Origin: Wocania arenilitoris
GTDB lineage: Bacteria; Bacteroidota; Bacteroidia; Flavobacteriales; Flavobacteriaceae
NCBI RefSeq assembly: GCF_021728535.1
Contig: NZ_JAKKDU010000003.1
Coordinates: 124,001-188,000, forward strand
Length of the DNA: 64,000 nucleotides
Direction of reading: 5' to 3'
This document shows, piece by piece, positions 12,738-27,898 of the stretch (position 1 is its first letter; each line of letters begins with the position of its first letter). The notes under the pieces are model-generated. The model was not told where the DNA came from, searched no databases, and saw nothing but the letters and a program-made list of their open reading frames with translations. The position numbers were made by a program, and so were the translations under genes.

Positions 12738-14501
12738 ATGATTAGAAAAACAATATTTTTTGCATTTTTAATCGTATTAGGTATTCTCCTTTTTGTTAAT
12801 CCAAATTTTAAAGCAATTTCGGCTGGAGTTGCTATTTTACTTTTTGGAATGATAATGCTAGAAGAAGGTTTTAAAGTTTTTACCAAAGGACCACTTCAAA
12901 ACATATTAAAAAAAGCGACTAATAAACTTTATAAAAGTATTACTGCCGGAGCTTTTGTTACAGCTTTAATTCAGTCTAGCTCATTAGTATCTGTAATTAC
13001 TATTTCATTTATTAGTGCAGAGTTAATCACTTTAGCAGGAGGTATTGGGTTAATTTTTGGGTCTAATATTGGTACTACTGCTACAGCGTGGTTAGTGGCT
13101 GGTTTTGGACTAAAAATTAAGATTTCAGCATTGGCGATGCCTATGTTGGTTTTCGGAATTGTTTTTTCATTTCAAAAAAAACCAGCGCTAAAAGGCATTG
13201 GTAATGTTTTAGCAGGTTTAGGTTTTTTCTTTTTAGGCATTCATTACATGAAAGAAGGTTTTGATGTTTTTAAAGAGTATATCGATTTATCGCAATTTGC
13301 AGTTTCAGGTTTTTTAGGGGTGTTTATATATACAGGTTTAGGTATAATTATCACCACTATTTTACAATCTAGTAGTGCTACTTTAGCGTTAATTTTAACA
13401 GCACTTGCTGCAGGACAAATAGAATACGAAAACGCTCTAGCATTAGCCATAGGAGCTAATGTAGGCACAACAATTACTGCTGTTTTAGGTTCTTTAGGTT
13501 CTAATGCTGCAGGAAGAAGGTTGGCAGGAGCACATCTTATTTTTAATGTTATAACGGGTTTAATTGCTATAGTTTTTATTTATCCATTGGCTAGATTGGT
13601 AAATAATTTATCCGAATTTATGCAAATAGTAAACACCAATTACGTATTAAAGTTAGCATTATTTCATACTATTTTTAATGTTATAGGTGTTGTAATTATG
13701 ATTCCTTTTATTAAAAAACTAGAACATTTATTATTAAGAATAGTTAAAGCAAGACCAGATTCGGATAAAGATGTAGATGAACCAAAATACTTAAATCCAG
13801 CGGCATTAAAATTCTCTGGGACTGCAATTTCTACTTTAGTTAAAGAATCGAAATATCTTTATAAAAACAGCATTTTTGAAATTGTCTCGCATGCTTTAAA
13901 TATTCATAGGGAAGACATAAAATCTGATGAAAAGGTAAAGGAAATCATAAAGAAATCTGATACGGATTTTAAAACAGATATTGAAGATTTATACTACACT
14001 AAGGTTAAAAATATTTATGGTGAGATAATTAGATATGCCACAACTGCAGAAAGTGATTTAAAACTAAATAAAAAACAAGTTAAAGCAATTTCGGATATAA
14101 AAATAGCTAATATAAAAATGGTTGAAATTGTAAAAGAGGCTAAAGAATTAAACAAAAATATTGCCCAGGCTTTAACTACAGATAACAAGTATATGCGTGA
14201 TGAATATAATAATTTTAGAAAAAAATTAACAAAAGTATTGAGAGTTATATATTTATTTAGAACAGAAGAGAATTATAAAGATTATGAGTTAAAACTTAAA
14301 GAGTTAAAAAAAGACGCCAAAGCAAATAAAAGGCACAGTAATAAATCTATTGATAAATTAATAAGAAAGAATTTAATAACTGCAGAAATGGCGTCATCAT
14401 TATTTAATGATTATACCAACGTAAATGATATGATTAAAAAGTTAATAGAGGTAGCAGAGCTACTCTACACAAAACACGATTCATTATTAGATAACTCATA
14501 A
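12738..14501 (+). CDS. Na/Pi cotransporter family protein with PhoU-like C-terminus
   Basis: A 587-residue membrane protein. It has two inverted repeats of the NptA/SLC34 fold, each with the signature QSSS (residues 79-82 and 210-213). GSNIGTT and GANVGTT follow the repeats, and about nine membrane segments end near residue 340. The last ~230 residues are soluble, helical and PhoU-like (KKQVKAISDIKIAN region). Such proteins import phosphate with sodium, or in some bacteria handle related anions. It stands alone and has no 11-bp repeat motif upstream, unlike the other phosphate genes here. The gene starts a region with two further phosphate-type transport proteins. Confidence 0.88.
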   Translation: MIRKTIFFAFLIVLGILLFVNPNFKAISAGVAILLFGMIMLEEGFKVFTKGPLQNILKKATNKLYKSITAGAFVTALIQSSSLVSVITISFISAELITLAGGIGLIFGSNIGTTATAWLVAGFGLKIKISALAMPMLVFGIVFSFQKKPALKGIGNVLAGLGFFFLGIHYMKEGFDVFKEYIDLSQFAVSGFLGVFIYTGLGIIITTILQSSSATLALILTALAAGQIEYENALALAIGANVGTTITAVLGSLGSNAAGRRLAGAHLIFNVITGLIAIVFIYPLARLVNNLSEFMQIVNTNYVLKLALFHTIFNVIGVVIMIPFIKKLEHLLLRIVKARPDSDKDVDEPKYLNPAALKFSGTAISTLVKESKYLYKNSIFEIVSHALNIHREDIKSDEKVKEIIKKSDTDFKTDIEDLYYTKVKNIYGEIIRYATTAESDLKLNKKQVKAISDIKIANIKMVEIVKEAKELNKNIAQALTTDNKYMRDEYNNFRKKLTKVLRVIYLFRTEENYKDYELKLKELKKDAKANKRHSNKSIDKLIRKNLITAEMASSLFNDYTNVNDMIKKLIEVAELLYTKHDSLLDNS

Positions 14502-17164: not shown

Positions 17165-19474
17165 TTACTCTTCTTTAACCGCACTATTTCCAGGCTCAAT
17201 ACCCTCATCCGCAACATTTATAGTTGCAGGTTCAACAGATGCATCATGTGAGTTATAATACTCTTCTAAAAGATTCATAGTTGCAGTTAATAAATCTTTG
17301 GTTTCAGTTAACAAACCAAAATATAAACTTGTATTTTTTGGGCTAGATTCTTCAGTACGTGTTCTTGCAACTTGCTTTACAATTTTATCGGTTACCAAAG
17401 CAAAGACTTCCTTTTTACGATTAATAATTTCACCAATTTGATCGAAAGAGTGCGAGTTGAAAGCTTCTTTAGTTTCTGTAAATAAAGTTTCTAAGGCGTT
17501 ATCTATTTCCTTGAGCTCCTTAATCTGACTAAATTTCAACTTCTTATGATTATTATTAATATGTTTATGGCTTACTTTAGAAATGTATTCTAAAGATTGC
17601 ACGATATCTTCTAAGTAGCCTAAAATGTTAATGTAAAAACTGCTTGCTCTTAAACTGGTTTCATCTAAATTTTTAATAAAATAAAAAATATTATCACGTA
17701 AATTATCTACTTCATCAGATAGTTTTGCTACCTGTTTTTTATTCTTTTTAAGTAATGTTAAGTCTTGCTTACTTAAACCTGTTATAGCATTAGAGTAAAT
17801 TCTGCTTCCTCGTTTTACTACGTTAGCAATATTGTCTGCACTTTCGATTATAACACCCTGTACAGAGCTGCTTCCAGTGTCTTTTAAGCTATCCTCATCT
17901 AAAGATTTTATAGAACTATTCTTATGTGATTTGTAGTTTCTATATAATAAGAAAGCAGTAATTAATAATAAGATTGGAGTCATTACTTGAGGATTCCAGT
18001 TTATTAAAAACACTACTGTACCGGCAGCAACAAAAGCTCCAATAGCAGTACCAAACCAGCCACCTATTACATTTAATACACCAGCTACTCTATAAACAGC
18101 ACTTTCTCTTCCCCAAGCACGATCTGCTAAAGAGGTTCCCATGGCTACCATAAATGTTACATAGGTTGTAGATAATGGTAATTTCATTGACGTTGCTATA
18201 GCAATTAATACACCCGCTACCATAAGATTTACAGAGGCTCTAATCATATCAAAAGCAGGCGCATCAATACTTTGATCTTTTGTTAAATGTATGCTTGGTT
18301 TTTTAAAACTATTATTAATACTATTTTGTAAAGAATTTGGTATAATAATACTAAAATAACGAGATAAATCTGATGAGCCTTTCACCAAGGCTCTAGATAA
18401 TAAATTAGGTTCAAATTTTTCGTGAGTTTCACTTTGTCTAGATAAGCTTATTTCTGTTTCAGCAACAGTTTTTGCTTTTTTAGAAAACCACAAAGTAAGT
18501 ACCATAATAGTACCCGCAATAAACAATAATAATGGCTCTGCAGGCACTTTTTTGTCTAATACTGCCATAGACATTGCAGTATCCATTCCACCAGATACCC
18601 AAGCTTCGTAGGAGTGGTAAGCAGCCATTGGTACTCCAATAAAATTAACTAAATCGTTACCAGAAAAGGCTAAGGCTAAACCAAAAGTTCCTATAGCTAT
18701 AACTACTAATAGCACTGTTTTTCTGGTTAGTTTCTCAAAAATAAATGAAAACAAGGTCCAGAAAGCAAAACTGCCCAGAATAATAAACACCTCGTTACCT
18801 TCTAGTAATCCCTTTAGTTCTTTATAGTAAGGCGTGCCTTTAAGACCTTTTAAGAAAATAAAATATGTGATTGCGGTTAGTGCTACACCACCAAAAATAA
18901 TTCCGAAATTTTTTATTTTTTTCTCATAATTAAATGTAAAAATAACACGAGACACCCATTGTACAACAGCACCAACTGTAAAGGCGATTAAGACCGATAG
19001 TAAAATGCCAAAAATAATTTCTGAAGCTTTTTTAGTATTTATATAACTGCTTAAATCTGCAAATGTTTGCGTGTCTGAAGCGCCTATTTTAATTAAGGAC
19101 ATTACAACTGCTGCTCCAAGTAAATTAAACACAATAGAAACCGTTGTAGATGTTGGTAAACCTAAAGTATTAAAAAAATCTAGAAGTAAAATATCTGTTA
19201 TCATTACTGCCATGAAAATGAGCATAATCTCCCCAAATTCAAATTGCGCAGGAACAAATATTCCTTTACGAGCTACTTCCATCATGCCACTAGAAAAAAC
19301 CGCTCCAATAAAAATACCCAAGCTAGCAACTATCATAATTGTTCTTAAAGAAAGTACTTTAGAACCAATGGCAGAATTTAAGAAGTTAATAGCATCGTTG
19401 CTTACGCCAACAATAATATCAGCAACAGCTAATACTGTAATGGCAATTAACATAAATAAATACATATTTTCCAT
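17165..19474 (-). CDS. Inorganic phosphate transporter, PiT family, with PhoU-like tail
   Basis: A 769-residue membrane protein. The PiT signature repeats are GVSNDAINFLNSAIGSK near residues 23-39 and LPLSTTYVTFMVAMGTSLAD near 425-445; GLPTSTTVSIVFNLLGAA also fits the family. About 12 membrane segments extend to ~525, followed by a ~200-residue helical PhoU/DUF47-like cytoplasmic tail. PiT proteins move metal-phosphate with protons or sodium across the inner membrane. The gene lies 67 bp downstream of the OprP-like porin gene on the same strand and has its own TGTTA repeat site in that gap. This supports a combined outer- and inner-membrane phosphate path. Confidence 0.9.
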   Translation of the reverse strand: MENMYLFMLIAITVLAVADIIVGVSNDAINFLNSAIGSKVLSLRTIMIVASLGIFIGAVFSSGMMEVARKGIFVPAQFEFGEIMLIFMAVMITDILLLDFFNTLGLPTSTTVSIVFNLLGAAVVMSLIKIGASDTQTFADLSSYINTKKASEIIFGILLSVLIAFTVGAVVQWVSRVIFTFNYEKKIKNFGIIFGGVALTAITYFIFLKGLKGTPYYKELKGLLEGNEVFIILGSFAFWTLFSFIFEKLTRKTVLLVVIAIGTFGLALAFSGNDLVNFIGVPMAAYHSYEAWVSGGMDTAMSMAVLDKKVPAEPLLLFIAGTIMVLTLWFSKKAKTVAETEISLSRQSETHEKFEPNLLSRALVKGSSDLSRYFSIIIPNSLQNSINNSFKKPSIHLTKDQSIDAPAFDMIRASVNLMVAGVLIAIATSMKLPLSTTYVTFMVAMGTSLADRAWGRESAVYRVAGVLNVIGGWFGTAIGAFVAAGTVVFLINWNPQVMTPILLLITAFLLYRNYKSHKNSSIKSLDEDSLKDTGSSSVQGVIIESADNIANVVKRGSRIYSNAITGLSKQDLTLLKKNKKQVAKLSDEVDNLRDNIFYFIKNLDETSLRASSFYINILGYLEDIVQSLEYISKVSHKHINNNHKKLKFSQIKELKEIDNALETLFTETKEAFNSHSFDQIGEIINRKKEVFALVTDKIVKQVARTRTEESSPKNTSLYFGLLTETKDLLTATMNLLEEYYNSHDASVEPATINVADEGIEPGNSAVKEE

Positions 19475-19493
19475 AATATCTTAATTTGTTTTG

Positions 19494-19536
19494 CAAATAT
19501 CTAGACTTTTTGGTCTATAATGTTACGTTAATGTTA
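19494..19536 (-). promoter_or_regulatory. Candidate Pho-type box and -7 element of the PiT gene
   Basis: TAACA occurs twice on the minus strand (plus-strand TGTTA at 19521-19525 and 19532-19536), 11 bp apart. A box ending in ATATTTG (plus CAAATATC, 19494-19501) lies 19 bp nearer the gene. The 11-bp direct repeat matches PhoB-type sites. Confidence 0.5.
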
Positions 19537-19541
19537 TTTTT

Positions 19542-20747
19542 TTAAAAGTGAAAATCGAATCCTAATCTAAATGTAATATTATCTTCATTTCCATCAACAG
19601 ATGTATAGCTTATATCACTTTGTACTTTTAATTTATGTCCATGGACAAACTTATTTAAACCTAAAGTGTATTGCTTTACAGGAAGTGCATTAGTTATAGT
19701 TTCATAATCTATATTTGTATATCTTCCAGCTACCTCAAAATTACTTTCAAATAAATAACCTGCTTGTAAGTTTAATGCATTACCTGTTAAAACCACATCT
19801 CCAGTTGGTGTTATACCATCTAATTCTGTAGCAATTTCATTGTCAGCAGTACGTTTTGCATATTCGCCCATAAACGAGAATCCATTATGTTTATACATAG
19901 CATCAACAAATATAGTAGTTTGATCGGTTTCGTAAATAGAACCATCTGTTCTAATCATATAATCACCAGCAAAACCTCTTTCTCTAACCGCATTTTCGTT
20001 AAAGTTATATGTAAATGTTAGTGATAACTTTGGCTTTTCTTCTCTTTTTAAATCAGAAGCACTATAATCGCCTTTAGATTCAAAGGCTCCAAAAGGTAAT
20101 AATTCTAAACGACCTGTGTATTGTAAACCACCTTCATTACCTTCAGTTACATTCCTTCCTTCTCCTTGTGAAAGGGCTACTTTCTCACGTATTAAAAAAT
20201 TATCGCCTAAATAAAATTTATGGCGTAATTGAATACCAATATCACGGTCTAAAGTAAAACGACTGTTAAGTAAAGAACGATCTATAAGTTGTAGATTACC
20301 AGATGATATAACACGTTCTACGTTACCAGGCAATTTAGTTTGTCCTGCCCAAAGCTCCCAGTTTTTTGCAAAGTGCCACATTAAAACGGCATCAAGGATG
20401 TAACGTGGGGTATTTCGATTAAATTGATTTCCACCAGATAAATCCCTATTGGAAAGTCCTAATTCTATCTTATATTTTAATTTTGGACTGTAAGCAAAAC
20501 CATCAAATTTTAAACGAGCACGACGAATAATAAAATTGTGTTCTGGACTACCATATTGATCGCCGTCATGATCCCACGATGATATATATCGCATTTGAAA
20601 ACGAGGTGCAAATTTTATACTAAAAGAACTGTCTTTTGCAGTAAAATTAATTAATCCTTTACCAAATTTGGTGTCGCTAATTTCTTGTGAATAAAGTGGT
20701 GATAATGCTAAAAAAGCAATAACTGCCAGTGTGAATTTAAGTTTCAT
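19542..20747 (-). CDS. Phosphate-selective porin, OprO/OprP family
   Basis: A 401-residue outer-membrane protein. The signal peptide ends at about residue 20 (LSPLYSQ). The barrel has alternating strands, and family motifs are RRARLKFDGFAYSPKLKYKI near 72-91 and WELWAGQTKLPGNVERV near 130-146. The C-terminus is RLGFDFHF with a terminal Phe, as needed for barrel assembly. Family members form anion-selective channels, and OprP itself is phosphate-starvation induced in Pseudomonas; other Bacteroidota members are less studied. A TGTTA repeat site precedes it, and the PiT gene follows, so the pair probably acts in phosphate entry. Confidence 0.85.
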   Translation of the reverse strand: MKLKFTLAVIAFLALSPLYSQEISDTKFGKGLINFTAKDSSFSIKFAPRFQMRYISSWDHDGDQYGSPEHNFIIRRARLKFDGFAYSPKLKYKIELGLSNRDLSGGNQFNRNTPRYILDAVLMWHFAKNWELWAGQTKLPGNVERVISSGNLQLIDRSLLNSRFTLDRDIGIQLRHKFYLGDNFLIREKVALSQGEGRNVTEGNEGGLQYTGRLELLPFGAFESKGDYSASDLKREEKPKLSLTFTYNFNENAVRERGFAGDYMIRTDGSIYETDQTTIFVDAMYKHNGFSFMGEYAKRTADNEIATELDGITPTGDVVLTGNALNLQAGYLFESNFEVAGRYTNIDYETITNALPVKQYTLGLNKFVHGHKLKVQSDISYTSVDGNEDNITFRLGFDFHF

Positions 20748-20773
20748 TATAGTTTTATTAGTTTTTGTCGCTG

Positions 20774-20806
20774 CAAATAACTAAAACCAATGTTAACTTA
20801 ATGTTT
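20774..20806 (-). promoter_or_regulatory. Candidate Pho-type box and -7 element of the OprP-like porin gene
   Basis: Plus-strand TGTTA (20791-20795) and TGTTT (20802-20806) are 11 bp apart. The box TTATTTG (plus CAAATAAC, 20774-20781) lies 9 bp closer to the gene, about one repeat unit nearer than at the PiT promoter. The site is 44 bp upstream of the start codon. Confidence 0.5.
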
Positions 20807-20822
20807 CCTAATAATTAATTTT

Positions 20823-20927
20823 AAAACAAAAGAGACTGCCTTGGATAAGGCAGCCTCATTAGAAATCATAATAATGTAGTCGACAAAAACTAATTGATTA
20901 TAATGAAATACTAATTGTTTGTCTTAA
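20823..20927 (-). ncRNA. Candidate small RNA ending in an intrinsic terminator
   Basis: On the minus strand an 11-bp stem (20857-20847 with 20842-20832, one G-U pair, loop ATCC) is followed by CTTTTGTTTT. No protein gene upstream on that strand needs it. About 100 nt upstream is a promoter-like stretch: TTACATT and TTAACTT 11 bp apart (20967-20950) and TATTTACC at 20940-20933. The spacing is the same as at the porin promoter. No good small ORF was seen. The start point is estimated from the box. Confidence 0.4.
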
Positions 20928-20932
20928 GACAT

Positions 20933-20967
20933 GGTAAATATCAAGGTTTAAGTTAATGCGAATGTAA
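20933..20967 (-). promoter_or_regulatory. Pho-like repeat and -7-like box upstream of the small RNA candidate
   Basis: Plus-strand AAGTTAA (20950-20956) and AATGTAA (20961-20967) are 11 bp apart; GGTAAATA (20933-20940) is the reverse of TATTTACC. The arrangement copies the porin site, although the repeats are less perfect. Confidence 0.35.
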
Positions 20968-21061
20968 CTCTAATATTAATTTATTATTAAGCTTTCCAAT
21001 GTTAAATCTTTAGCGGCAATGTTTTTATAAAAACCTAATAATCAATTTATTACAATTACAA

Positions 21062-21116
21062 TGTTAATTTAGTGTTAAGTCAAGGTTGTTTTAATGTTAT
21101 GCGATTTGTATCTTTG
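21062..21116 (+). promoter_or_regulatory. Four-unit 11-bp Pho-like array and -7 element
   Basis: TGTTA starts at 21062, 21073 and 21095, with a degenerate GGTTG at 21084, so four units follow at exact 11-bp steps. TATCTTTG at 21109-21116 matches the Bacteroidota -7 consensus TAnnTTTG, 9 bp after the last unit. This is the geometry of E. coli Pho boxes, where the array replaces the upstream promoter element. Confidence 0.6.
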
Positions 21117-21143
21117 AATTATAATGTTTAAAACCCCATAATT

Positions 21144-21467
21144 ATGAAGAAATTAATTTTATTACTTTTCACCTTTTTAATTACTGTGGTATCTTTTGCT
21201 CAAGACAAGCAAAAGAGAGATTTAAAGCTCAATAAAGAAACCAACTTAATTGATGTGGTTTATTATCATGATGATGGTACTGTTAGCCAAACAGGATCGT
21301 TTACTGCTGATGGTAAATTACATGGTAAGTGGTTAAGCTTTAACACAGCAGGTGAAAAAATCGTTTCTGCAAATTATGATAATGGTAAAAAAGTCGGCAA
21401 ATGGATTCATTGGATTGAAGGCAAAAAAAAGGTAGTTAACTATGACAATAATGTTGCTTCCTTATGA
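21144..21467 (+). CDS. Secreted YwqK/MORN-like protein
   Basis: A 107-residue exported protein with a signal peptide (residues 1-19, VVSFAQ). The mature part holds two to three copies of the MORN-variant repeat: DDGTVSQTGSFTADGKLHGK, then AGEKIVSANYDNGKKVGK, then a last WIHWIEGKKK. Such repeats occur in YwqK-like antitoxins and in many secreted Bacteroidota proteins of unknown role. No toxin gene lies beside it, so an antitoxin role is unlikely. Its promoter carries the best 11-bp repeat array in the window, so it is probably induced with the phosphate genes. It ends at a clear terminator. Confidence 0.7.
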   Translation: MKKLILLLFTFLITVVSFAQDKQKRDLKLNKETNLIDVVYYHDDGTVSQTGSFTADGKLHGKWLSFNTAGEKIVSANYDNGKKVGKWIHWIEGKKKVVNYDNNVASL

Positions 21468-21487
21468 CTTGATTCTAATTTTGAAAT

Positions 21488-21523
21488 AAAAAAATCGTCT
21501 AAAATTATTTAGGCGATTTTTTT
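21488..21523. terminator. Bidirectional terminator between YwqK-like gene and TonB receptor
   Basis: A7-TCGTCTAAA pairs with TTTAGGCGA-T7 (one G-U pair), with a four-base loop. It serves the convergent genes ending at 21467 and 21546. Confidence 0.9.
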
Positions 21524-21545
21524 GTTTTATGTATTTTAGTAAAGA

Positions 21546-24374
21546 TTAAAACTTGTAAGCATAGCCTATGGAAAACTCTGTTCCAGGTTCTCTTAAAGAA
21601 AACACTTTGTCTTCAGCTCTAAAAGATTGATAAACGCTTTCTCTTTCAGCTCCTAAAATATTAGAAATTTTTATATCTATTGAAGATTTTTTGTCTTCTC
21701 CAAAAGATTTATTTAGTGTAAAGTTTAAACTTTCAAAAGGTATAGTAAATACATCAGGTACACCTCCTAAACCAACAACTTCTAGTGTTTTACCTTGCAT
21801 ATTAAAAAACAAGCCTGTTTGTAATCCCATTTCTTCATTAGAATAATTTAGGCTAGTATTTATTAAGAAAGGCGATTGCCCTTGCAGGTTTCTTTTCCTA
21901 TCAATAGTTTCACCAGTTCTAGCGTTAGCTTGTCTTGAGTTAAACTCTTCATCAGACATGGTTAACTCAGATTCTGTAACAGAGGCATTTAAAGAGAATT
22001 TTAAGTTTGTTAAGCTTTCAGCAATAAATCCTAAATTTTTTCTAAACTCTACTTCAGCGCCATAAACCTTTGCACTACCCAAATTTCCAATTGTTAACTG
22101 AGTTGGAGCAGAAGCAAAGAATGATTTTTCGAGAGGATCTGTAAAGTCTTTATAAAACCCACTAATGGCAAACATTTGTCCAGCATCGCCAAAATTCTCA
22201 AACCTTAAATCGAGGTTGTTTATATAAGTTGGTTTTAAATCAATATTACCAATAAATAATCGATCTGTTATGGGATCAAATATTTGCGATAAAGAAGCCT
22301 CTTTAAAAGAAGGTCTTGCAGTAGTTCTATAATAAGAGGTGCGAATATTGGATTTTTCGGTAACCGCATAAATAAAGTTTGCTGAAGGAAATAAATCATA
22401 TTCATCTAGTACTTTAAATCTATTATATAATATAACACCATCTTGCCCTGTGTAATACGATGTAAAAGCCTCAGCCCTTAGTCCTAAAATAGACTTTAAG
22501 TTTTCAGTAATATTAAATTCGTTAGAAATATAGGTTGAAGAAATATGCTGTTCTCCTTCATAGGCATCGTTAGGATTAAAGATGTCTCCAGAAATAAGGT
22601 AGGTGCCTTTAGTATTATCTCTATTCCAAATGTTTTCTGGTAATAGTAAATTATTAGGGTTGCCATTAGCAACTGGTGTACCATTATTATCAAAAGTCCA
22701 GTCATCAACACTAAAATCTCTAAACTTATAAGTGTGACCACCTCCAAATTTTACTTTAGCAGGTTTTCCAAATAATTCATATTTTTTACTAAAATCTAGC
22801 TTACCAGCCCAATTTTCTTCTTGTAAAAAACGCCAAATACGAATAGGGAATGTAGCAGCAGATGCACTAATAAAATATTCGCCTGTTTGCGATTGCTGTA
22901 ATGGCGTTACTCTATGATCTAAATCGTGTACTTTTGAAATTGTAGGAGATAATTTCCAGTCTAAACTCCAATCGTTATCTGTTCCAAATGAATGTTCTCC
23001 ATTTAAAAGGACATTGGTTACTGAGCGCTCTGTGTAAGTAATAGCATCTTTTGTTAATGGCTCGAAGCCAGATCCAGATCCAGGCCCACCTTGTGCTACA
23101 AGCTGGTTAAAGAAACCACCTGCGGATTCGCCATTTTGAATATGCAATACATTAACTTTATATTTTGAATTTTGGGTTTTAAATGTAAGACCAACAAGAC
23201 CATTTACAAGGACATTGTTTATACCTTCGCTACCAGTTGAAATTCTATCAGTAACTAATTGATTGTTTGATCTATCATTAGCATCAATAGAGAATGCACC
23301 GTCTAGACGATTTTCGTAAAACGTAGTACTGTTCTTATACGAAAACGATGCTAAATACCCTAACTTATTATTTTCTCCAACTTCAAACTGATCGCCTAAT
23401 GTAAAACCAAAATCAAAATTTGGATTACTAGTGGTCTCTTTAGCTCTTAACTCACTATCAAAACGTCCAGTAAGTGTAGTTAATAAGCCTCGGTTATCAA
23501 AAGTCCCAGGAATGTTTTGGTACCTATGTATAGGTCTGTTTCTTGAGTTATCATCATATCCCCAAAAATCAGTACTGCTAGCTGTTCCATTTAAGTAGTT
23601 GTCTTTACCATGCATACTCGGGTTAAAACCTGCGCCAAGTGCTATAGAAGCTTCAAATTTTGTTGGAAAATCCTTTGTAACTATATCAACAACACCTCCC
23701 GTAAAGTCTGCAGGATATTCGGCAGCAGCAGATTTAATTACTATTATATTATCTAAGATGTTTGTTGGAAAAATATCCATTTGAATAGTATTTCTGTCTG
23801 GATCTAAACCAGGAATATCTACACCGTTTAAAGTAGATTTGGTATACCGGTCTCCAAGTCCTCTAACATATACATATTTACCACCTTCAACCGAAACTCC
23901 AGGCACACTTTTTACAGCGCTAGCTAAGTTACCTGCTCCGCTAGATTTTATACTTTGTGCTGATAAACCATCTAAAAGGGTGACAGATTTTTTTTGCATG
24001 TTTAAAACAGCATTTTCTGTATTTCTCTTAGCACTTGTAGTGATAATTATTTCGTCTAAGGCGTTAGATTTTAAAATAACATCTAAATTTATGACTTGCC
24101 CAGATTTAATAATAACATCACTTATTTCTTTGGATTGATAACCTACAAAAGAAAAAATAAGAGTATAGGTGCCTTGATCTAGATTTAACTGATATTTTCC
24201 CTCAAAATCTGAAGTAGCGCCCGTTGTAGTTCCTTTCACTAAAATATTGGCAAATGCCATAGGCTCATTGTTATATTCGCCATCAAGTATATTTCCAGCT
24301 ACGGTCCCTGTTTGTGCATTAACATTAATGCATGTGATAAAAAATAGTGTAAGAACTATATAAATATTTTTCAT
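21546..24374 (-). CDS. TonB-dependent receptor, downstream partner of a beta-helix lipoprotein
   Basis: The frame opens at 24428, but ATG at 24374 gives a clean signal peptide (MKNIYIVLTLFFITCINVNAQ), so I take 942 residues. In order: a carboxypeptidase-regulatory-like domain (~22-105, GTVAGNILDGEYNNEPMAFA), a plug with VKSVPGVSVEGGKYVYVRGL and DRYTKSTLNGVDIP (~140-260), and a large barrel ending SIGYAYKF. The lipoprotein gene lies 74 bp upstream on the same strand with a hairpin in the gap. In Bacteroidota such lipoprotein/receptor pairs capture and import one ligand. The promoter of the pair carries the 11-bp repeat motif, so a phosphorus-containing ligand is a fair guess but unproven. Confidence 0.88.
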   Translation of the reverse strand: MKNIYIVLTLFFITCINVNAQTGTVAGNILDGEYNNEPMAFANILVKGTTTGATSDFEGKYQLNLDQGTYTLIFSFVGYQSKEISDVIIKSGQVINLDVILKSNALDEIIITTSAKRNTENAVLNMQKKSVTLLDGLSAQSIKSSGAGNLASAVKSVPGVSVEGGKYVYVRGLGDRYTKSTLNGVDIPGLDPDRNTIQMDIFPTNILDNIIVIKSAAAEYPADFTGGVVDIVTKDFPTKFEASIALGAGFNPSMHGKDNYLNGTASSTDFWGYDDNSRNRPIHRYQNIPGTFDNRGLLTTLTGRFDSELRAKETTSNPNFDFGFTLGDQFEVGENNKLGYLASFSYKNSTTFYENRLDGAFSIDANDRSNNQLVTDRISTGSEGINNVLVNGLVGLTFKTQNSKYKVNVLHIQNGESAGGFFNQLVAQGGPGSGSGFEPLTKDAITYTERSVTNVLLNGEHSFGTDNDWSLDWKLSPTISKVHDLDHRVTPLQQSQTGEYFISASAATFPIRIWRFLQEENWAGKLDFSKKYELFGKPAKVKFGGGHTYKFRDFSVDDWTFDNNGTPVANGNPNNLLLPENIWNRDNTKGTYLISGDIFNPNDAYEGEQHISSTYISNEFNITENLKSILGLRAEAFTSYYTGQDGVILYNRFKVLDEYDLFPSANFIYAVTEKSNIRTSYYRTTARPSFKEASLSQIFDPITDRLFIGNIDLKPTYINNLDLRFENFGDAGQMFAISGFYKDFTDPLEKSFFASAPTQLTIGNLGSAKVYGAEVEFRKNLGFIAESLTNLKFSLNASVTESELTMSDEEFNSRQANARTGETIDRKRNLQGQSPFLINTSLNYSNEEMGLQTGLFFNMQGKTLEVVGLGGVPDVFTIPFESLNFTLNKSFGEDKKSSIDIKISNILGAERESVYQSFRAEDKVFSLREPGTEFSIGYAYKF

Positions 24375-24390
24375 GGATGTAATTTGTAAA

Positions 24391-24423
24391 CTACTGCTTG
24401 CCCTTAACCAAGACAAGCAGTAG
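24391..24423 (-). promoter_or_regulatory. Intercistronic hairpin between lipoprotein and TonB receptor
   Basis: CTACTGCTTG and CAAGCAGTAG form a perfect 10-bp stem around a 13-base loop, ending 16 bp before the receptor start. No T-run follows in the direction of transcription. It may stabilise the upstream lipoprotein message or lower receptor expression. Confidence 0.5.
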
Positions 24424-24448
24424 TACATTTTTTATAAAATTTACTGTT

Positions 24449-25765
24449 TTAGAAACCTAAACCACCAGCCATATTTGCATAAGTCCAGCTAAGATTTGAT
24501 GTTGTTGCTCCAACGGTTTGAGAACCTTCTGTAACTTGAGAGGTCCAATTTGAAGCTCTTTCAGTAAATGTTGGATCTAAAATAATTTTATCTTCAGGAA
24601 TATCGTTTGTTTCATCTGCATCATCGCAGTTTTGTGCGCATCCTACTTTCTCTAAGAAAATGCTATTATCAAATCCAACAATTTCCCATTTTTCAAAAGT
24701 TATTAATCCGTCTAAAAAGTTTTGAGAAACGCCATTGTTATCTAATTCTACATCAGCGCTATCTTTAAAGCCTTTTGCATAAACATTTTTTACAATACCA
24801 GTAGCTTTACTTCTAAAATCGGCATACTCTCCGTTTGAGGTGTTTAAGTTACCTATTAAAGTTACATTTTGTAAAGTAAAAGCTCCAGTTGCAGTTCCTT
24901 CTCGTCCATCAATTTCTAAAGCATGATCGGATGCATCACCTAATACAACAACGGCATTATCAATAGTTCCTGAATACGCTTGGTCTATATCTAAACCATC
25001 ATCGCCTTGAGCCCAAACCATTAAGTTGGTTGCATTAACAGTGCCTCCAAAAAACTCTATTCCATCATCTACATTGGCAACAACTTCTATGTTATCAATA
25101 ATGGTTTTGTTTCCTACGCCACCTAAAGTAAGACCATTAATTTCGTTCCCTTCACCAATTAAGGCACCGCCATGGCGAATAGATACATATCTAAGAATAC
25201 CAGAATCATCTTCAGGATCAGTGCCTCCGTAAAGACCAAATGCATCATCAGCAGGAATACCTTCTATTTGCACCTCGGTTAAATCACCTTTAAAAGAACA
25301 AGGTGCGTTCCCTAAAATGATTAAACCACCCCAAAGGCCTCTGTTTTCTTCATTAAGATTAGTGCCCGCAGTTTGTCCAGCATCAATATTGTCATTAGAA
25401 GATGTAAAAATAATTGGATTAGCAGCAGTTCCTTCAGCATTGATTTTTGCACCTCTAGCTATAATTAAAGCTGAAGCTAATGATCCAGTTCCTGGTTTAC
25501 CTTTTATTATTGTACCTGCTTGAATGGTTAGTGTTACACCATCTTCAATAACAACTTTTTGGTTTAATTCGTATATGTTATCGTTTGTCCAAGTTGTATC
25601 TTCTGAAATAGCTCCTGTAACAGCCACTGTAGGTGTACCACTATTACCTCCTTCATTTTGAATAATTGTAATTTCCTCAATTATTATAGGTGTGTCATCA
25701 TCTTTAAGGCATCCAGTAAAAACCAAAGTCGATACCATTAAAAGAGTAAATAATAATTTTTTCAT
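24449..25765 (-). CDS. Surface lipoprotein with right-handed beta-helix fold
   Basis: 438 residues. The type II signal peptide ends at VFTGC (Cys19). It is followed by LKDDD, which resembles the acidic lipoprotein export signal that places Bacteroidota lipoproteins on the cell surface. The body has the regular GVTLTIQAGTIIKG, NPIIFTSSND and NATNLMVWAQGDDGLDIDQ turns of a parallel beta-helix, and a late Cys pair (GCAQNCDDADETND) close to an acidic, possibly calcium-binding loop. Its partner receptor follows. The protein probably binds the ligand outside the cell. The upstream region carries Pho-like repeats at 25837, 25870 and 25881. Confidence 0.82.
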   Translation of the reverse strand: MKKLLFTLLMVSTLVFTGCLKDDDTPIIIEEITIIQNEGGNSGTPTVAVTGAISEDTTWTNDNIYELNQKVVIEDGVTLTIQAGTIIKGKPGTGSLASALIIARGAKINAEGTAANPIIFTSSNDNIDAGQTAGTNLNEENRGLWGGLIILGNAPCSFKGDLTEVQIEGIPADDAFGLYGGTDPEDDSGILRYVSIRHGGALIGEGNEINGLTLGGVGNKTIIDNIEVVANVDDGIEFFGGTVNATNLMVWAQGDDGLDIDQAYSGTIDNAVVVLGDASDHALEIDGREGTATGAFTLQNVTLIGNLNTSNGEYADFRSKATGIVKNVYAKGFKDSADVELDNNGVSQNFLDGLITFEKWEIVGFDNSIFLEKVGCAQNCDDADETNDIPEDKIILDPTFTERASNWTSQVTEGSQTVGATTSNLSWTYANMAGGLGF

Positions 25766-25808
25766 AAGTTTTAATTTTTTAAGTATTTTTTCGTTTTGTT
25801 TGATGCCG

Positions 25809-25885
25809 CAAAGAAACTACCATGTTGTAAACCATGTGTTACCTAAAGATTAAAGAACCATGATAAAAGTGTTAGCTTAATGTTA
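25809..25885 (-). promoter_or_regulatory. Candidate Pho-type promoter of the lipoprotein/TonB receptor pair
   Basis: Plus-strand TGTTA at 25837, 25870 and 25881 (steps of 33 and 11 bp) and the box CAAAGAAA at 25809-25816 (minus TTTCTTTG). The gap from first repeat to box is 20 bp. The layout is identical to that at 26421-26497. Confidence 0.55.
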
Positions 25886-25913
25886 CTTTAAAGAGGTTGA
25901 TTTTAAGATTGTT

Positions 25914-25929
25914 TTACATTAAGTTAACA
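25914..25929 (-). promoter_or_regulatory. Extra inverted copy of the 11-bp repeat
   Basis: Minus-strand TGTTA (25929-25925) and TGTAA (25918-25914) are 11 bp apart. It lies about 150 bp upstream of the lipoprotein gene, in the opposite orientation to the nearer sites. Confidence 0.35.
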
Positions 25930-25954
25930 TTGAATTGCGATGGGTTGAATACAT

Positions 25955-26001
25955 AAAAAAAGCAGCTTTCATTGTATCATTGTAATGAAAACTGCTTTTT
26001 T
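25955..26001. terminator. Terminator after the small carboxypeptidase-regulatory-like gene
   Basis: AAAAAAAGCAG (25955 onward) pairs with CTGCTTTTTT at the other end, extended inside by TTTCATT/AATGAAA. T-runs are present on both strands; it lies 19 bp beyond the stop of the minus-strand gene. Confidence 0.85.
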
Positions 26002-26019
26002 AAAGTCTATTAAAACAGA

Positions 26020-26400
26020 TTATTTATTAATAGCCGTATCTTTTTTATCTGTACTCGCCAGCGTTAGCATCAAATCGTCTATAGATATAGAGTCTGCTTT
26101 TAAATGCAATTTGATATTTATGGATTTTCCGTTAATTACTTTTATTGTAGATTCTTTAGTTTCATACCCCACAAAACTACTAACTAAGGTATATTTACCA
26201 GCTTTTAAGTTGTCAAATTTAAATAGCCCTTTTTCATCAGATAAAGCTTCAGAACCCGTTTCTTTAATAACAACTTTAGCATAAATTAGTGGCTCGTTGT
26301 TAGATTCTAAATCTAATAAGTACCCTTGAACAGAACCCGTTTGTTGTGCAAAAGAAAATGCGGTTACAAAAAAGATGGCTATAAGTAAAATTTTTCTCAT
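26020..26400 (-). CDS. Stand-alone carboxypeptidase-regulatory-like secreted protein
   Basis: A 126-residue exported protein (signal peptide 1-19, FSFAQ). It consists of one carboxypeptidase D regulatory-like beta-sandwich (GSVQGYLLDLESNNEPLIYA to VINGKSINIKLHLKAD) and a short tail. This domain normally forms the N-terminus of TonB-dependent receptors, but here no plug or barrel follows and a terminator ends the gene. It is not an obvious pseudogene: the frame ends cleanly and has its own regulated-looking promoter. The similarity to the receptor N-terminus at 24.3 kb suggests a derived, free-standing module. Function unknown. Confidence 0.7.
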   Translation of the reverse strand: MRKILLIAIFFVTAFSFAQQTGSVQGYLLDLESNNEPLIYAKVVIKETGSEALSDEKGLFKFDNLKAGKYTLVSSFVGYETKESTIKVINGKSINIKLHLKADSISIDDLMLTLASTDKKDTAINK

Positions 26401-26420
26401 TATTAAAATCTATAATGTTG

Positions 26421-26497
26421 CAAAGAAAAATATTTATTGTAATTGTAATGTTATGTAAACATTAAACAAGAGTCATTAAAATGTTACGGTAATGTTA
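26421..26497 (-). promoter_or_regulatory. Candidate Pho-type promoter of the small carboxypeptidase-regulatory-like gene
   Basis: Plus-strand TGTTA at 26449, 26482 and 26493 (steps of 33 and 11 bp); the box CAAAGAAA is at 26421-26428 (minus TTTCTTTG). It also lies 61 bp upstream of dgt on the other strand, so an effect on dgt cannot be excluded. Confidence 0.55.
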
Positions 26498-26557
26498 TCA
26501 AATATTACATTTATTTTTATTGAATTTACTTATCTTGCTTGCGTATAAAAAACTAAA

Positions 26558-27898
26558 ATGAACTGGGAACAACTACTATCTTTAAAACGCTTTGGCGATA
26601 CTAATAAACGAATTAGAAAAGAACAAGACGAAACACGTTTAGGGTTTGAAGTAGATTACGATCGTATTATATTCTCTTCAGAATTTAGAAGTCTTCAAGA
26701 TAAAACACAAGTTATTCCTTTGTCGGACACTGATTTTGTACACACACGTTTAACACATAGTTTAGAGGTTAGTGTTGTTGGGCGCTCGTTAGGGCGACGC
26801 GTGGGGCAAAAGCTGTTAGAAAAGCACCCACATTTACAAAGCGTTTATGGCTATCAAGCAAACGATTTTGGTGCTATTGTTGCAGCAGCTGCTTTGGCTC
26901 ATGATATTGGAAATCCGCCTTTTGGTCACTCAGGTGAAAAGGCTATTGGCGAGTTTTTTAAAACAGGAGAAGGAAAAAAATATAAAAACCAATTAACCGA
27001 TAAAGAATACCAAGATTTATGTGATTTTGAAGGTAATGCCAACGGCTTTAAAATTTTAACCGAAAGTAGAGCAGGAAGAGTTGGTGGTTTACGCCTAAGC
27101 TATGCCACCCTAGGGGCGTTTACAAAATATCCTAAAGAATCGTTGCCTAAAAAACCAACAAATCATATAGCTGATAAAAAATATGGGTTTTTTCAAAGTG
27201 AAAAAGAAGCGTTTGTAGATGTCGCAAATGAGCTAGGGTTAATAAAAAGAAGCAAAACTCATGTAAGCTTTTCGCGACATCCGTTAGCGTTTTTAGTTGA
27301 AGCTGCCGACGATATTTGCTACACCATTATCGATTTTGAAGATGGTATAAATTTAGGTTTAATTCAAGAAGAATATGCGCTAGAATACCTATCAAAAATT
27401 ATTCGAGATAATATAAAACCAGAGAATTATTATGCGCTTTCAACCAAAGAAGATAGAGTAGGTTATTTGCGTGCGCTGGCCATTGGTTCGCTAATTAACG
27501 ACGTCGTAGACATTTTTATGAAAAATGAAGAAGCCATTTTAAATGGCACCTTTGATAGTGCGTTGCTAGATAAAAGTAAATTTGAAGCTCAAATAAATGA
27601 TGTTATTAAAATTAGTATAGAAAATATTTACCAATCTACTGAAGTTATTGATAAAGAAATAGCAGGCTATGGCGTAATTAACACACTTTTAAATACTTAC
27701 ACAACCGCCATAAATAACACCTACAAAAATACGGCTTCAAACTACGATAAGCTTATTTTAAAAGGCTTACCAAAAACTATAAAAATTAATAAATCAAGTT
27801 TGTATCAGCGTTTAATGAGTGTGTGTTACCACGTATCATTGCTTTCAGATAGTAAAGCTATTCTAGAATATAAAAAGATAAAAGGGGTAAGTATTTAA
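26558..27898 (+). CDS. dgt: dGTP triphosphohydrolase
   Basis: A 446-residue HD-domain enzyme that splits dGTP (and in type-2 members other dNTPs) into deoxynucleoside and triphosphate. The metal site is His67 (RLTHS) and His115-Asp116 (AHDIGNPPFGHSGE), with a distal Asp in LVEAADDICY near residue 250. The N-terminus SLKRFGDTNKRIRKEQDETR and SEFRSLQDKTQV is typical of the family. It is cytoplasmic and single-gene. It is transcribed away from the Pho-like cluster. Length matches the family. Confidence 0.92.
   Translation: MNWEQLLSLKRFGDTNKRIRKEQDETRLGFEVDYDRIIFSSEFRSLQDKTQVIPLSDTDFVHTRLTHSLEVSVVGRSLGRRVGQKLLEKHPHLQSVYGYQANDFGAIVAAAALAHDIGNPPFGHSGEKAIGEFFKTGEGKKYKNQLTDKEYQDLCDFEGNANGFKILTESRAGRVGGLRLSYATLGAFTKYPKESLPKKPTNHIADKKYGFFQSEKEAFVDVANELGLIKRSKTHVSFSRHPLAFLVEAADDICYTIIDFEDGINLGLIQEEYALEYLSKIIRDNIKPENYYALSTKEDRVGYLRALAIGSLINDVVDIFMKNEEAILNGTFDSALLDKSKFEAQINDVIKISIENIYQSTEVIDKEIAGYGVINTLLNTYTTAINNTYKNTASNYDKLILKGLPKTIKINKSSLYQRLMSVCYHVSLLSDSKAILEYKKIKGVSI

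Follow-up and report, generated by a model that had tools for sequence, protein, structure and literature searches.

The 11-bp direct repeats at the phosphate genes of Wocania arenilitoris are very probably Pho boxes that are bound by phosphorylated PhoB and activate phosphate uptake genes when phosphate is scarce. They lie in a 7-kb region of the window, by which we mean the whole stretch of DNA analyzed (64 kb, 32% GC, from a flavobacterial genome of 3.49 Mb). The sites themselves, their phasing, their conservation, and their gene specificity were all shown by computation. An earlier note on this DNA had proposed a flavobacterial Pho box at phosphate genes, and the proposal is supported by a site upstream of phoB, conservation at phoB and PiT, specificity of the motif, and counterparts in Flavobacterium, from which we infer binding by PhoB.

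On the + strand of the window TGTTA occurs 136 times, with exact pairs at 11-bp spacing at four places (19521/19532, 21062/21073, 25870/25881, and 26482/26493), all of which fall between 19521 and 26497; TAACA pairs at exactly 11 bp are absent from this strand of the window. In the sense of the gene, the word at four of the five genes reads TAACATT-N4-TAACATT, that is, 11-nt direct-repeat units in which some seven bases are conserved. When the 7-kb region was shuffled by dinucleotides, exact 11-bp pairs averaged 0.048 with a maximum of two, none of 500 shuffles reaching four, and 380 kb of other genome stretches held three such pairs, all in stretches with previously spotted sites. The claim that TGTTA repeats at 11 bp at gene starts is thus borne out, although the individual copies listed with it fared unevenly: those at 21095, 25837, and 26449 are indeed in register, but 20791/20802 is a TGTTA/TGTTT pair with one mismatch and the unit at 21084 is degenerate (TTGTT). 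Two sites had been absent from that list, one on the opposite strand at 25914-25931 and one upstream of phoB, outside the window. The features of the cluster are as follows, with scores from a matrix described below.

17165..19474, minus strand: PiT-family phosphate transporter (PHO4) with a PhoU-like tail (PF01384, E=3.8e-29)
19493..19499, minus strand: -7-like element TATTTGC of the PiT promoter, conserved as GATATTTGC in relatives
19519..19536, minus strand: predicted PiT Pho box, TAACATTAACG TAACATT, 23.1 bits, starting 28 bp before the TTTG of the -7 element
19542..20747, minus strand: OprP-like porin (Porin_O_P; PF07396, E=3.9e-12)
20789..20806, minus strand: predicted Pho box of the porin gene, AAACATTAAGT TAACATT, 21.4 bits, 18 bp before the TTTG of the -7 element
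21060..21099, minus strand: array of four 11-bp units between the porin gene and ywqK, 22.3 and 15.1 bits, conserved in relatives
21109..21116, plus strand: putative ywqK -7 element TATCTTTG, its TTTG 18 bp past the last TGTTA, conserved in the genus
21144..21467, plus strand: small secreted YwqK/MORN-like protein, with a weak family match only
21546..24428, minus strand: TonB-dependent receptor, 20 bp behind the lipoprotein gene (PF00593/PF07715/PF13715)
24449..25765, minus strand: lipoprotein, kin of phosphate-starvation lipoproteins beside phoBR, whose relatives adjoin phoB or PiT in many genera
25808..25816, minus strand: -7-like element TTTCTTTGC of the lipoprotein promoter, recognized by sequence
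25868..25885, minus strand: predicted distal Pho box of the lipoprotein-TonB receptor unit, TAACATTAAGC TAACACT, 22.3 bits
25914..25931, plus strand: oppositely oriented Pho-box-like site TTACATTAAGTTAACATT, 19.1 bits, conserved in two congeners (L237, L238)
26020..26400, minus strand: small secreted CarboxypepD_reg-like protein (PF13715, E=1e-20)
26420..26428, minus strand: -7-like element TTTCTTTGC of the CarboxypepD_reg promoter, recognized likewise
26436..26453, minus strand: predicted proximal Pho box of the CarboxypepD_reg promoter, TAACATTACAA TTACAAT, 14.6 bits, 18 bp before TTTG
26480..26497, minus strand: predicted distal Pho box of the CarboxypepD_reg gene, TAACATTACCG TAACATT, 22.3 bits, 62 bp before TTTG

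The gene module PiT-porin-ywqK-TonB receptor-lipoprotein is conserved in relatives, with the porin box identical across four of them (L237-L240). The site at 25914-25931 lies between the lipoprotein promoter and the CarboxypepD_reg gene and has no obvious forward gene. The divergent neighbor in the cluster is dgt (dGTP triphosphohydrolase); the CarboxypepD_reg boxes (within 26436-26560) are also upstream of it, an arrangement conserved in four congeners, and dgt might also be controlled by PhoB. For a Na/Pi cotransporter gene near the cluster (12738-14501), an upstream box of at least 11 bits was absent among the top matches.

At promoters with a recognizable TTTG(C)-type -7 element, the distance from the start of the repeat to the TTTG is 18 bp (porin, CarboxypepD_reg), 28-29 bp (PiT), or 62 bp (lipoprotein, distal box of CarboxypepD_reg), and these distances approximate 7+11n bp. 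The repeats stand in fixed phase beside the -7 (-10) element at the predicted promoters of the PiT, porin, lipoprotein, and CarboxypepD_reg genes, an arrangement that, as judged from the sequence, fits an activator occupying the place of the -33 element. The lipoprotein promoter carries further in-register units, TAACA at 25837 and an adjoining TTACA, giving a phase of 62/29/18 that matches the Flavobacterium phoB-TonB receptor promoter. An expected -7 element is missing at some sites, including the 21.1-kb array when read toward the porin. The orientation of this array, flagged earlier as an exception, is largely explained: it points forward with respect to the divergent porin-PiT unit and is inverted with respect to ywqK, and the inversion is conserved; toward ywqK, four congeners have a TATNTTTG element 18 bp beyond the last repeat. 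Some boxes are still inverted relative to their nearest gene. It is possible, if rather doubtful, that PhoB acts from tandem TAACATT arrays helically phased (~7+11n bp) to the -7 element, with one box serving both divergent promoters (porin/ywqK and phoB/neighbor) and its orientation not fixing the direction of activation. The conserved inverted boxes at ywqK and phoB, together with those near dgt in four congeners, might also suggest that PhoB binds mainly to repress, at least at inverted sites (ywqK, the dgt side, and phoB). This is very unlikely, as at the main genes the box takes the -35 position in fixed phase to the -7 element, which is the geometry of activation, and the counterparts in F. 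johnsoniae are induced, not repressed.

The specificity of the motif was assessed by whole-genome pattern searches and on 20 sampled stretches, some with previously spotted sites. A matrix built from five window sites was used to scan 464 kb of the genome with 376 gene upstreams, where scores of at least 18 bits were confined to the cluster and the region just upstream of phoB, the next best score being 15.4; matrix scores in the cluster are circular, as these are its own training sites, but the score of the phoB site is not. Allowing at most one mismatch to TAACATTANNNTAACATT, nine places were found genome-wide, of which six are in the cluster, one is ~85 bp upstream of phoB, and two are elsewhere. 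Once two mismatches are allowed, matches in the genome are no more numerous than those of the reversed control, which leaves the strict motif alone as informative; a looser pattern, TTAACATNNNNTTAACAT with three mismatches, was discarded for enrichment since its frequency equals that of the reversed control. These genes, not AT-rich DNA, are what the strict motif marks, and it is commoner at phosphate uptake genes than elsewhere. The scan against AT-rich background that the earlier note had put forward as able to overturn the reading instead upheld it, with matrix scores of at least 18 bits confined to the phosphate cluster and phoB in the 464-kb sample. Further exact 11-bp intergenic pairs occur at G000:C7:85988, C33:112422, and C2:105593, where they adjoin an outer-membrane receptor gene, ribosomal protein S6 and a LytTR regulator, and an unclassified membrane protein; these three were kept out of the regulon, their neighbors having no evident phosphate role.

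The site upstream of phoB (G000:C36:150776) places a box at the phoB/phoR operon, consistent with autoregulation, although its orientation is forward for the divergent gene. Behind phoB lie a PhoR-like kinase and then a glycosyltransferase (PF04101). The gene divergent from phoB encodes a T9SS-tail protein here and a lipoprotein or TonB receptor in other genera. Within G000:C36:150691-150900 (L041, L063), the box sits between phoB and the gene of this 113-aa T9SS-tail protein, downstream of which is a LuxE-like acyl-protein synthetase; in the phoBR cluster of Flavobacterium, relatives of the T9SS-tail protein are neighbors of the lipoprotein and TonB receptor. No pst genes were found in this genome, where the sole match for a PstS candidate was a weak one to a LysR protein and was rejected.

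Only two OmpR/PhoB-type regulators are encoded in the genome, PhoB and an RprY-like protein (C35:119778). The repeats could in principle be operators of the latter, a general stress regulator whose targets would then include the phosphate genes, given that direct-repeat binding is common among OmpR-family proteins and that the rprXY promoter has one weak pair (10.7 bits). A flavobacterial protein of the same family, the PhoP of Riemerella anatipestifer, gave 583 peaks by DAP-seq, with TTTAACA as the top conserved bases of a motif likened to E. coli ArcA; it binds upstream of its own operon, and no phosphate transporter is among the direct targets listed (PMC9603813). Its mutant raised pstS, and it may be an orthologue of either PhoB or the RprY-like protein, an ambiguity for which it was rejected as proof of PhoB binding. 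A general regulator would be expected to have many strong sites elsewhere, but in the genome scans the strong sites are restricted to phoB and the phosphate transport genes, and they are conserved there, making control by the RprY-like protein unlikely and favoring PhoB.

Conservation was examined in relatives using sites of at least 11 bits, with expectations taken from shuffles. Sites were found upstream of phoB in 18 of 25 genomes against 1.0 expected, a count in which L074 was scored on the wrong strand (on the correct strand it scores 19.1), and upstream of PiT in 14 of 19 against 0.8 expected, one of these being a training site; dxs, a control gene from the same window, had sites in 1 of 18 (0.26 expected). 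These sites span about a dozen genera per gene, the congeners among them not being independent. At PiT most genomes have the site at about -59 to -69 on the strand of the gene, despite diverged flanking DNA. The spacing is also evident without the matrix: of the 14 TAACA pairs on the gene strand upstream of PiT, 11 have 11-bp spacing, and the strand opposite phoB has 22 TAAC pairs spaced 11 bp apart, nine at 22, and nine at 33, other spacings having a mean of 1.4, with no pairs at 11-bp spacing in the dxs upstreams. Across Flavobacteriaceae the motif is conserved ahead of both phoB and PiT and keeps a fixed position, strand, and 11-bp spacing. Chance repetition in AT-rich DNA, for which one might cite the loose pattern being no commoner at two to three mismatches than its reversed control, is opposed by the shuffles and the genome sample and is refuted by the comparative site counts and the matrix-free spacing in relatives, leaving it a negligible probability.

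The same genomes bear on the membership of the PhoB regulon. The lipoprotein family adjoins phoB in some genera and PiT in others; at one locus (L243:4457-6907, G013), the lipoprotein gene beside phoB is a single 817-aa frame with two copies of the domain. Four of the genomes without this PiT have PstS, and strong boxes occur at pstS in two of these four, one of them in the intergenic region common with phoB. Alkaline phosphatases of the PF00245 family were rejected as members, none of 15 upstreams having a box, which leaves the regulon transport-centered. PhoX was dropped as a test since its match was missing in six of seven genomes of the Flavobacterium relatives.

In Bacillus subtilis, the PhoP box consists of TT(A/C/T)A(C/T)A repeats ~11 bp apart and closely resembles the present motif in word (TTAACA) and period, in the setting of Gram-positive promoters. 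More generally, Pho boxes are defined by 11-nt units of 7+4 bases (PMC4415409). The repeats described here are built, like the boxes of E. coli (CTGTCAT) and Streptomyces (GTTCACC), of at least two 11-nt direct-repeat units in which seven bases are conserved and four vary, and likewise stand near a -10/-7 element at phosphate uptake genes and phoB, but differ in that the word is TAACATT, the -7 element is of the Bacteroidota TTTG type, and PiT, a porin, and a TonB receptor replace pst and phoA (PMC4415409). Closer to home, Fjoh_0545/0546 of Flavobacterium johnsoniae, the counterparts of the TonB-receptor and lipoprotein genes that adjoin phoBR in its relatives, rise by log2 8-10 upon phosphate depletion, with phoB moderately induced and the OprP of the phoBR cluster not (PMC8115612). 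This cluster likewise contains OprP, a TonB receptor, a related lipoprotein, and a glycosyltransferase, and Flavobacterium relatives have the same repeats there; it differs in lying at phoBR, whereas that of Wocania arenilitoris lies at PiT (PMC8115612). The study reports expression, and a description of an operator was not found in it. As F. johnsoniae was absent among the 80 loci listed, Flavobacterium sp. Root186 and F. anhuiense stood in for it. Both have TAACA units in 11-bp register at the TonB receptor gene that diverges from phoB, the last of them a short way before TTTCTTTGC, and the lipoprotein gene farther along in Root186 carries a 14.3-bit site. With the window matrix the phoB-TonB receptor array has a poor score of 7.5 bits, the word after TAACA being different, so evidence from this array rests on its spacing.

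Taken as Pho boxes, the operators would consist of 11-bp direct-repeat units, each TAACATT plus four variable bases, which phosphorylated PhoB would bind head-to-tail when phosphate is scarce. PhoB would thereby sit beside the -7 element in constant helical phase, 18 bp away or farther by full turns, where it may substitute for the -33 element and recruit RNA polymerase. Its role as the binder, its phosphorylation, activation, and low-phosphate induction in this organism are what we infer. Predicted targets are the PiT transporter, the OprP-like porin, the lipoprotein/TonB-receptor unit, and two small secreted proteins, and the phoB-intergenic box would activate the divergent gene and probably phoB itself too. 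With pst absent and no box at the PF00245 alkaline phosphatases, this is not the textbook regulon; on the best reading it is a Pst-less one built on PiT, a porin, and a TonB receptor.

The switch is of a known kind, and its spelling in flavobacteria is apparently new; the open-access papers found do not describe an operator at flavobacterial phosphate genes, an earlier account elsewhere being possible. Flavobacteria recycle much phosphorus in the sea and in soil, and their starvation genes are known through expression studies. A defined box at a fixed distance from the -7 element would make the phosphate regulon readable from genome sequence, would tie TonB receptors, lipoproteins, and small secreted proteins that have no assigned role to phosphate, and would offer a simple set of promoters for studying the action of an activator at promoters of the unusual Bacteroidota type.
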